Assembly (NCBI RefSeq): GCF_020687205.1
Contig: NZ_JAJEQE010000012.1
Coordinates: 1-64,000, forward strand
Origin: Hominisplanchenecus faecis
GTDB lineage: Bacteria; Bacillota; Clostridia; Lachnospirales; Lachnospiraceae
Length of the DNA stretch: 64,000 bases
Direction: 5' to 3'
How positions within the stretch are numbered: position 1 is the stretch's first letter; each line of letters begins with the position of its first letter. This document shows positions 13,072 through 45,373 of this stretch, in pieces. A model generated the notes under the pieces. It ran no database searches, was not told the DNA's origin, and saw nothing but the letters and a program-made list of their open reading frames with translations. Both the position numbers and the translations under genes were made by a program.

Positions 13072-13110
13072 CGTTTTCTCCTTTTCTTGCTGAAAATATT
13101 AAAGCCAGAA

Positions 13111-13166
13111 GATGCCATACAAATCGTTTCATACATGGTACTCTCACAATTCTCCTCTTTGGCACC
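13111..13166 (-). repeat. Dispersed hairpin element, copy B (in the proS leader)
   Basis: Minus strand: GGTGCC, then AATTGTGAGAGTACCATGTA, then TATGGCATC. The arms GGTGCCA and TGGCATC pair with one G-U. The inner stem GTAC-CAT-GTAT keeps pairing through a G-U. It is transcribed only when the T-box antiterminates, and it ends 40 bases upstream of the proS start. Confidence 0.65.
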
Positions 13167-13170
13167 TAAT

Positions 13171-13438
13171 AAAAAAGCCCCGGTCTCTGCGTGAACGCAG
13201 GAACCAAGGACTTGTCATCTCTTCGGCGGTACCACCCTGATTAGCACTGTTAAAAACAGTACTCACTCATTTTCCGTTATCGCCGGAACTACGCTGTATT
13301 TTCATACAGGACTCCAAGGCAGGTTCCATCTCTTCCGCACAGGAATCTCGCACCAGTGATCCCCTCTCTGTAGATTGTCCGAAATGTACTATCCCTTTTC
13401 TTCGTCTTGCCCCTATAACGAGCTGTCAGCTCTGTTTC
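13171..13438 (-). ncRNA. T-box riboswitch, proline specificity
   Basis: The leader carries the T-box sequence AGGGTGGTACCGCCG (minus strand of 13224-13238), which pairs with the uncharged tRNA acceptor end. A stem-I region with AGAGAGGGGATCACTGGTGC precedes a specifier loop in which CCT, a proline codon (13321-13323), precedes GCCTTGGAG. A terminator with CCTGCG-TTCA-CGCAG and a long lower stem ends in TTTTTT (13171-13215). Binding of uncharged tRNA-Pro would favour the antiterminator and turn on proS. Confidence 0.93.
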
Positions 13439-13474: not shown

Positions 13475-13635
13475 TAAGAAACGGCAATTTTTCATTTCTT
13501 GCTTTTTGTCCGGGTCTATATTAAAATACTGATGATTCAAGGGACAAATGGACACAAAACGGATGCTTGCATACATATTTGTGTCTATGAGGACCGACAA
13601 AACATGAGGGTGCAGCTATTTACGCAGTAAATATG

Positions 13636-13700
13636 CGAATTCCGAATGTTTTCGTGATTTTGAGAGTACAAAGTACGGAAAAATCACGTATGGCTCATTG
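13636..13700 (+). repeat. Dispersed hairpin element, copy C
   Basis: Core GTGATTTTGAGAGTACAAAG continues TACGGAAAAATCAC. The outer stem GTGATTTT/AAAATCAC replaces ATTGT/ACAAT of other copies with pairing kept. It lies 30-90 bases upstream of the DUF4317 gene in the sense direction. Confidence 0.65.
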
Positions 13701-27414: not shown

Positions 27415-27477
27415 GATGATGCCAGGGTTACAGAATTTCGCAAGTACGCAGTACAGAGCAATTCGTATGGCATCATC
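27415..27477 (+). repeat. Dispersed hairpin element, copy E
   Basis: The complete 63-bp element has perfect 10-bp terminal inverted repeats GATGATGCCA and TGGCATCATC. The core is GAATTTCGCAAGTACGCAGT, continuing ACAGAGCAATTC. The inner stem is GTAC-GCA-GTAC. It lies directly upstream of the response regulator remnant and is the cleanest minimal copy. Confidence 0.75.
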
Positions 27478-38888: not shown

Positions 38889-38940
38889 ATATTCTCTCCA
38901 TTCTGTTTCCCTGTTTAAAGATGTTATGTTAATGTACAAA

Positions 38941-38991
38941 GATGCCTACGAATTGTTCCGTACTTCGTACTCTCACAATTCTATAAACATC
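38941..38991 (-). repeat. Dispersed hairpin element, copy F
   Basis: Minus strand GAATTGTGAGAGTACGAAGT continues ACGGAACAATTC. The outer stem GAATTGT/ACAATTC and the inner stem GTAC-GAA-GTAC are both perfect. It lies between the MBOAT and DHHW genes, sense to both, and ends in GGCATC. I use it as the reference core. Confidence 0.75.
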
Positions 38992-38992
38992 A

Positions 38993-40411
38993 TTAAAATC
39001 TAAAATATAAAAACGGATTGTACGTTGCATCTACCAGATAAGCGACTGACACAAAGAAGATCACCGCATAAAATGCAATGTAGATCACATTTTCCGCCCA
39101 GGTCCGCTTTCTGCCGCCAAGCACAACGCCGGCTGCTTTCTTTGGCAACATCGTCGAACCGAGGATCGCCAGAACAAACAGGACGGCATAATTACCAAGC
39201 AGGTAGAGTGTCTCGTTATTCCACAGGCCCTGTCCGAATCCGCCAAACATGGCTTTCAGATACGAGATCCCATATGCCATATCTTCGCATTTGAAAATGA
39301 TCCAGCCGATCACCACAAAAAACATGGTGTAAATCCGCTGAATGATTCCAGGAAGACGGTTCAGCACCTTTTTCAGCACCAGCTTTTCGATCAGCAGAAG
39401 TGCTCCGTAGTAGCAGCCCCAGAGAACATAATTCCAGTTCGCCCCGTGCCAGATTCCGGTCAGCATCCAGACAACCAGAATGTTGCGGATCTGCTTTGCG
39501 ATCTTACAGCGGTTGCCGCCAAGCGGAATGTAAACGTATTCTTTAAACCAGGAACTTAGGGAAATATGCCATCTTCTCCAGAATTCCGTGATACTCTTTG
39601 AAATATACGGATAATTGAAGTTCTCAAGGAAATGGAAACCGAACATCTTTCCAAGCCCGATCGCCATATCCGAATATCCGGAGAAATCAAAGTAGATCTG
39701 GAACGTATAAGCCAGTGCCCCAAGCCATGCCGTACCTGCTGCCAGTCCATCGACCGGAAGTACTGCAATGGCATCCCAGAGTGCACCGATGTTGTTCGCG
39801 ATCAGGACTTTTTTGCCAAGTCCGATCATAAAACGATGAATACCTTCTGAAAAATCGGAAGTATTTTCCTTTCTGTGCTCCATCTGCTCTGCGATCGTCT
39901 TGTACTGCACGATCGGTCCTGCGATCAGCTGCGGAAACATGGAAACATAAGTGCCATACTTGATCCAGTTTTTCTGAACCTCCGTGCTTCCCTTGTATAC
40001 ATCAATCGTGTATGACATTGTCTGAAACGTAAAAAAAGAAATACCGATCGGCAGCGGTATCCCAAGCAGTGGTATTCCCGCACCGGTTAATGTATTGACC
40101 GTCCCGATGAGGAAGTCCGCATATTTAAAAAATCCAAGGATGGAAAGATCCACAAGGATTGAAGTCATAAGAAAACGCTTCGCCTTTTTCTGATTGCCTT
40201 CCTTTTTCGCTTTGTCGATCCCTTTTCCGATGCAGAAATCCATGGTGATCGTAAAAAGCATCAGAAATACATACTTCGGTTCGCCCCACGCATAAAAAAA
40301 CAGGCTGAAGAGCAGCAGAATGACATTCCGAAGCTTTCGCGGTGCTATATAGTAGAGGATCAGTACTGCCGGCAGAAACCGGAACAGAAACAACAGACTG
40401 CTGAAAACCAT
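38993..40411 (-). CDS. MBOAT family O-acyltransferase (AlgI/DltB-like)
   Basis: This membrane-bound O-acyltransferase of about 472 aa has many hydrophobic helices. The active-site His is in MLTGIWHGANWNYVLWGCYY. LLGIPLPIGISFFTFQTMSY and DFSGYSDMAIGLGKMFGF are typical of AlgI/PatA-like members. It would move acyl groups, often acetyl, from the cytoplasm to a carrier or enzyme outside. It is followed on the same strand by the DHHW gene and faces a divergent SGNH hydrolase. The ATG at 40411 with GGGAG is chosen over an upstream frame start at 40486. Confidence 0.88.
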   Translation of the reverse strand: MVFSSLLFLFRFLPAVLILYYIAPRKLRNVILLLFSLFFYAWGEPKYVFLMLFTITMDFCIGKGIDKAKKEGNQKKAKRFLMTSILVDLSILGFFKYADFLIGTVNTLTGAGIPLLGIPLPIGISFFTFQTMSYTIDVYKGSTEVQKNWIKYGTYVSMFPQLIAGPIVQYKTIAEQMEHRKENTSDFSEGIHRFMIGLGKKVLIANNIGALWDAIAVLPVDGLAAGTAWLGALAYTFQIYFDFSGYSDMAIGLGKMFGFHFLENFNYPYISKSITEFWRRWHISLSSWFKEYVYIPLGGNRCKIAKQIRNILVVWMLTGIWHGANWNYVLWGCYYGALLLIEKLVLKKVLNRLPGIIQRIYTMFFVVIGWIIFKCEDMAYGISYLKAMFGGFGQGLWNNETLYLLGNYAVLFVLAILGSTMLPKKAAGVVLGGRKRTWAENVIYIAFYAVIFFVSVAYLVDATYNPFLYFRF

Positions 40412-45205: not shown

Positions 45206-45373
45206 ATGATGCCAGAATTTTGAAAGTGCGAAGTACAGAACAATCCACCTCAGTATTCGCATATCGTGGGATTATCATCCCACTTTTATGCTCATATAGG
45301 GGCGGGTCCCAAGGTCTTTCATCCACCTATGAGCAAGCTCATGTGGATTTAGACCTTTTGACCCTGGCATCAT
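45206..45373 (+). repeat. Dispersed hairpin element, copy G (composite, 168 bp)
   Basis: Perfect 9-bp terminal inverted repeats ATGATGCCA (45206-45214) and TGGCATCAT (45365-45373) bound three stems. The first is the family core (GTGC-GAA-GTAC). The second is GTGGGAT-TATC-ATCCCAC (45266-45283). The third is a hairpin of 24 bp in four segments (45304-45364) with loop AA. No transposase is present. It occupies the ttcA leader region, sense to ttcA, ending 39 bases before the start codon. Confidence 0.75.

Follow-up and report, generated by a model that had tools for sequence, protein, structure and literature searches.

Results

Copy G lies upstream of ttcA and matches the Clostridiales-1 RNA model

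The element studied here, copy G, lies in the spacer between hydG and ttcA in a 64-kb stretch of DNA from a member of the Lachnospiraceae (the window, by which we mean this whole stretch). It is placed between a −35-like box and the ribosome-binding site and start of the TtcA-like gene and, judged from this place in the sequence, is probably transcribed within the ttcA leader. The names hydG, hydF and ttcA were assigned by eye from the translations and are putative.

Copy G is a member of RF01699 (“Clostridiales-1 RNA”), with a score over the curated cut-off of 48 bits of the Rfam model. RF01699 was predicted in 2010 as a structured RNA candidate and has no known function; Weinberg et al. (2010) list it in a table, as Clostridiales, human gut (y, n, n), and their main text, in the form accessible to us, uses none of the terms transposon, inverted repeat or MITE (PMC2864571). 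Rfam files the family as an sRNA, and we found no paper in the open-licence literature that describes RF01699 as a transposon or as mobile.

Table 1. Copies of RF01699 in the window and parts of copy G (bit scores are those of the Rfam model).
Feature	Position	Strand	Evidence
Second RF01699 copy, degenerate ends GATTC...GGCTC	13533..13697	+	87.2 bits
Copy E: 5' end, normally oriented module 3, inner 3' end	27417..27475	+	19.8 bits, weak; read directly
Short copy, convincing only in module 3 and 3' end	38940..39032	−	37 bits, below cut-off
Copy G	45207..45372	−	Full-length RF01699 match, 98.7 bits (cut-off 48), model positions 1-166 of 166
Copy G, 5' terminus of full-length part, GATGCCAGGGTCAAAAG	45355..45371	−	Among 51 exact termini in genome; reversed control 0
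Copy G, module 1, long first hairpin	45304..45364	−	Fold; covarying helix 2 of family alignment
Copy G, module 2, ATATGAGC...GCGAATACT, inner GTGGGAT/ATCCCAC hairpin	45252..45297	−	Fold; covarying helices 3 and 4
Copy G, inverted piece, best read as 5' terminus and module 3 of a short copy joined head-to-head	45208..45247	+	32/40 identity; orientation test

The ends and the fold of copy G are largely as the preliminary description had them. The terminal sequences 45206-45215 (ATGATGCCAG) and 45364-45373 (CTGGCATCAT) form a perfect 10-bp inverted repeat, the hairpin at 45304-45364 contains four pairing segments, and TGCTCATA (45289) can pair alternatively with TATGAGCA (45328). The fold was better than that of any of 200 shuffled sequences (z = −6.4 for the + strand and −7.6 for the − strand). 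The exact terminal 10-mer occurs three times in the window, twice in copy G and once in copy E. Comparison with other copies places the element proper at ~45208-45371, with the outer AT/AT outside it. The further claim that copies G and E have the same ends holds for the 5' end, which is common to both, and not for the inner 3' end, which is CGTATGGCATC in E and TTCTGGCATC in G.

In the short copy at 38940..39032, the model match owes its 5' part to flanking sequence, and comparison of filled and empty sites gave no clear contrast. Elsewhere in the window, a T-box leader (13203-13411, − strand; 88.9 bits, just below its cut-off of 93) is adjoined by a short RF01699-like piece (13110-13220).

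The orthologous site is empty in a sister species

The other genome of the genus that we compared (G001) is 74-80% identical in large aligned blocks of the region. Its hydG-ttcA spacer, of 662 bp, contains neither an RF01699 match nor a terminus, and the flanks of copy G, when joined, align to this spacer; the alignment passes through TTGACTTTT and, across the junction, the ribosome-binding site. The empty site that the preliminary description had proposed to look for is thus present in a sister species, with a boundary that is approximate at ~74-80% identity. An RF01699 match was also absent from the 20 ttcA loci tested, out of 80 fetched (these were picked by ttcA, with or without a neighbouring hydG). 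Copy G itself showed no clear target duplication, as its flanks (ATGATAT and ATGGAAT) agree at 5 of 7 positions, compared to ~3.6 by chance.

Copies in the host genome have fixed ends and a modular interior

The host genome (3.27 Mb, 104 contigs) yielded 99 RF01699 matches at E ≤ 10, 40 of which scored over the cut-off, some of them partial copies at contig ends. Exact matches to the terminus GATGNNNGGGTCAAAAG number 51, and the reversed control pattern has none, which rules out chance as the source of the matching ends. Read in the RNA orientation, a complete element runs from GATGCCAGGGTCAAAAG to CTTTTGACCCCAACATC (or a variant), is ~182-194 bp long in this genome, contains three conserved hairpin modules and encodes no protein. 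The Rfam model stops inside the element, at an inner GGCATC; in the commonest form the outer 3' end lies ~28 nt past it.

The family shows several of the features by which MITEs are recognised. GATGCCAGGGTCAAAAG and CTTTTGACCCCAACATC are terminal inverted repeats common to its copies, which are short (36-245 bp), carry no transposase gene and are numerous (the 40 matches over the cut-off). All of the 30 copies tested were intergenic, in mixed orientation to the genes.

Many contigs end inside the first hairpin of the element (C7, C20, C24, C31, C42, C62, C64, C67, C69, C72 and others). The assembly is therefore broken up by the repeat, and copy numbers counted from it are approximate.

Copies fall into size classes of 36/37, 66-69, 75-81, 182-194 and 234-245 bp. 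The 36/37-bp copies are just the two ends, and those of 75-81 bp contain only the first or the third hairpin. The longest (234-245 bp) have an extra hairpin followed by GACCGAAGCGGAGCGTAGA, inserted at either of two places. For the short copies, internal deletion is the better reading. For the family, then, the suggestion that modules are inserted between fixed ends was borne out in part, given the fixed ends, the variable modular interior and a true extra module; it fails for copy G, as described below.

The hairpin of the GACCGAAGCGGAGCGTAGA module varies in sequence while its tail is constant. In the host genome, copies of the module occur at L053, L055, L057, L059 and L063, and in part at L064, L068, L069, L071-L073, L077, L094, L101, L103 and L105, and the module may be mobile in its own right. 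Units of module 2 plus module 3 (ACATGAGAAAG...CGAATGTTT...) also form head-to-tail runs outside full elements (flanks of L042, L043, L049, L050 and L061). At one place in the host genome (L075, C46:4039-4209), a module-3 copy lies directly behind the apparent start of an integrase-like gene, and its GAAGCGGAGCGTAGA tail seems to extend the integrase-like reading frame.

Copies are flanked by 7-8 bp duplications

A script collected 17 copies in the host genome with both outer ends. Their 7-bp flanks matched at 82% of positions, compared to 52% for mismatched pairs of copies, and 7 of the 17 had a perfect 7-bp duplication where 0.12 were expected, a value that none of 20,000 permutations reached. 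Other duplication lengths gave no comparable excess, except for one copy with a perfect match at 8 bp. In one full copy, on contig C77 (L026/L041), the flanking direct repeat is perfect over 12 bp (ATTGTATTATAT) rather than 7 bp.

The same was seen in other genomes. A foreign set of 60 copies was chosen from 34 genomes among the RF01699-positive genomes listed. Both outer ends were recognised in 44 of them (20 genomes); the remaining 16 were dropped because they had no GAT start, an outer end that our rule did not recognise, or a contig end. Perfect duplications flanked 32 of the 44 (7 bp in 23, 8 bp in 8 and 6 bp in 1), and 12 had none. The 23 perfect 7-bp cases compare with ~0.9 expected, and again none of 20,000 permutations reached the observed value. 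Twelve of the 44 copies came from a single genome, G038, each with its own flanks. Exact termini number 125 in G038, whose 183-bp copies are nearly identical and carry intact 7-bp duplications.

Even the shortest forms can be flanked in this way: one 36-bp copy had a perfect 8-bp duplication and one 37-bp copy a perfect 7-bp duplication. As duplications survive internal deletion, these cases do not establish that the shortest forms are mobile on their own.

Search for a transposase with the same ends

Searches of transposase loci and of end pairs found no autonomous copy and no transposase with these ends. At loci of PF01609 (13), PF01610 (6) and PF00872 (10) in 8-10 genomes there were no paired ends; one end with two mismatches, in L369, had no partner. 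Facing pairs of exact ends 1-3 kb apart were absent among the places listed in the host genome, and from the listed part of the 125 termini in G038, where 20 stretches were read. Multi-copy insertion sequences often end up in small contigs. The readable small contigs of the host genome contained no ends, those below 3 kb being read as N. A terminus match in a viral contig (L221) was rejected as a chance match, lying inside an apparent regulator gene, presumably of the MarR type.

Copy G is best read as a head-to-head chimera

The preliminary description had proposed comparing the interior of copy G with those of other long copies. The three-module interior proved to be standard, and the third hairpin of copy G proved not to be. 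It had the same orientation in 89 of 90 full-length copies (30 from the host genome and 60 foreign), and copy G was the sole inverted one (1/90). Read inward from the 5' terminus, short copies matched the right 40 nt of copy G (45208-45247, + strand) at 32 of 40 positions (L089, L096) or 31 of 40 (L088, L074). Nine candidate places were picked for this comparison, and all were tabulated. Five normal 3' ends matched at 10-15 of 40 positions, and the best of 2000 shuffles that kept the 8-nt end reached 27 of 40. From these sequence comparisons, copy G is best read as a full-length element joined head-to-head to the inverted 5' half of a short copy. The junction would lie at the palindromic third hairpin shared by the two, and would leave two outward-facing 5' ends. 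Joining two 5' ends would account for the perfect 10-bp inverted repeat of copy G, and a chimeric origin for its missing target duplication. Lacking that duplication, copy G by itself proves nothing.

Could the third hairpin simply have flipped in place, with no second copy joined? In favour of this, the hairpin has inverted-repeat arms, and copy G alone has the loop region inverted. However, a flip should leave the normal inner 3' end, CGTAGGCATC, in place, and copy G ends instead in TTCTGGCATC, the complement of a 5' terminus, GATGCCAGAA, as in short copies. We therefore consider a flip unlikely. The original proposal, in which copy G corresponds to the 63-bp element E after insertion of two hairpin modules between fixed ends, draws on size classes with common ends and on the true module insertions in other copies, but it is very improbable, as the three-module form is the widespread, standard one, module 3 has opposite orientations in E and G, and the right end of G is a 5' end.

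The fold is conserved across genera of one family

RF01699 scored over the cut-off in 87 of 200 genomes (199 genera) of the family to which the window belongs, identified as Lachnospiraceae from named hits. In a draw across the phylum it did so in 4 of 299 genomes, all of the same family as the window, and in none of 14 control genomes. In an alignment of 29 copies (27 foreign genomes and two copies from the host genome), 96.3% of cells were paired, compared to 29-46% in slid controls, and 26 of 37 pairs had changed on both sides, compared to 13.6 in shuffles. Consensus folding (alifold, 31 genomes) gave −40.8 for the RF01699 strand and −30.5 for the opposite strand, and G-U cells outnumbered A-C cells by 34 to 6, with one pair giving 13 of the 34; as the fold was chosen on the RF01699 strand, which biases both figures in its favour, they are no more than suggestive of an RNA on that strand.

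Discussion

We conclude that copy G is very probably an old, rearranged copy of a MITE-like mobile element of the Lachnospiraceae, and that the body of this family is the Clostridiales-1 RNA. This conclusion rests on the fixed ends, the many copies, the 7-8 bp duplications, the intergenic placement, the patchy spread, the empty orthologous site and the size classes. Parent element apart, the family has the testable features of a MITE; copy G, taken alone, lacks the duplication. A transposase supplied in trans would recognise the ends, a staggered cut of 7 (sometimes 8) bp would lead to insertion of the element, and internal deletions and inserts would then generate the size classes.

Against a MITE-like element stand the 12 of 44 foreign copies that have no perfect duplication, the lack of any transposase or autonomous copy with these ends in our searches, and above all an interior that is conserved across genera beyond the need of a passenger element. 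Conservation of the fold exceeds what two transposase-binding ends require, and is the main unexplained point. It suggests that the folded strand may matter, for mobility or for tolerance by the host. One rather doubtful extension is that the fold is part of the mobility mechanism, such that a trans-acting protein would need the folded RNA or single strand, and not the ends only. If so, Clostridiales-1 would be a passenger transposon that depends on its structure to move. A comparable partnership of fold and mobility exists in RNA-guided systems (HEARO/omega-RNA, for instance); we know of none for elements that make 7-bp target duplications.

What if RF01699 is a multi-copy family of small-RNA genes with a cellular function, and the repeats and duplications are by-products of its spread? 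Its filing as an sRNA in Rfam, the strong covariation (26 of 37 pairs changed on both sides), and the energies and G-U excess noted above, albeit for a fold chosen on the RF01699 strand, all speak for such genes. On the other hand, they would be expected neither in copy numbers of tens per genome, oriented both ways relative to genes and patchy in their presence, nor with 7-8 bp target duplications and forms reduced to the terminal inverted repeats or to one hairpin. We regard this explanation as improbable, and note that a cellular RNA function and mobility need not exclude one another. RAYT (Y1) transposases act by cutting single-stranded hairpins, and the copies might be palindromes of the REP type mobilised by such an enzyme. 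This is hardly credible: the short palindromic intergenic modules, high copy number and occasional head-to-tail runs fit, but the IS200/IS605-type (Y1) mechanism is not known to make a target duplication, and the 7-8 bp duplications do not fit it.

Reading the family as a MITE-like element gives an orphan Rfam RNA family an identity, as a mobile element whose ends are fixed, whose target duplications can be measured and which is present in many genera of one bacterial family. It also carries a warning, that covariation alone is no mark of a stand-alone RNA gene, and poses a testable question: why would a fold this elaborate persist across genera in a passenger transposon that should need only its two ends? 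Copy G, read as a chimera, shows in addition that palindromic modules allow copies to fuse head-to-head.

How does the family compare with known systems? REP/BIME elements with RAYT transposases are similar in their short palindromic intergenic modules, high copy number and composite arrangements; they differ in that target duplications and long terminal repeats are found here. RF01699, as far as its original account could be consulted, has the same sequence, fold and host group as copy G, but is described there as a candidate structured RNA (PMC2864571), and the Rfam model falls ~28 nt short of the outer 3' end. Prokaryotic MITEs such as QMITE2 of Coxiella, in the portion of the account available, share terminal inverted repeats, intergenic AT-rich sites, stable stem-loops and the lack of a gene, and QMITE2 has direct repeats of 7-9 bp; here, in contrast, no parent insertion sequence was found, and the interior fold covaries across genera (PMC10969869). 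The bcr1 repeats of Bacillus cereus, as portrayed in the accessible parts of two papers, occur in the B. cereus group alone and are associated with TTTAT motifs (PMC3446304, PMC6542083), whereas our family has variable 7-8 bp duplications and belongs to another host family, the Lachnospiraceae. Nevertheless, bcr1 is the nearest working parallel: on the same partial evidence, these are likewise short, MITE-like intergenic repeats with mobile features, and are often transcribed within UTRs (PMC3446304, PMC6542083).
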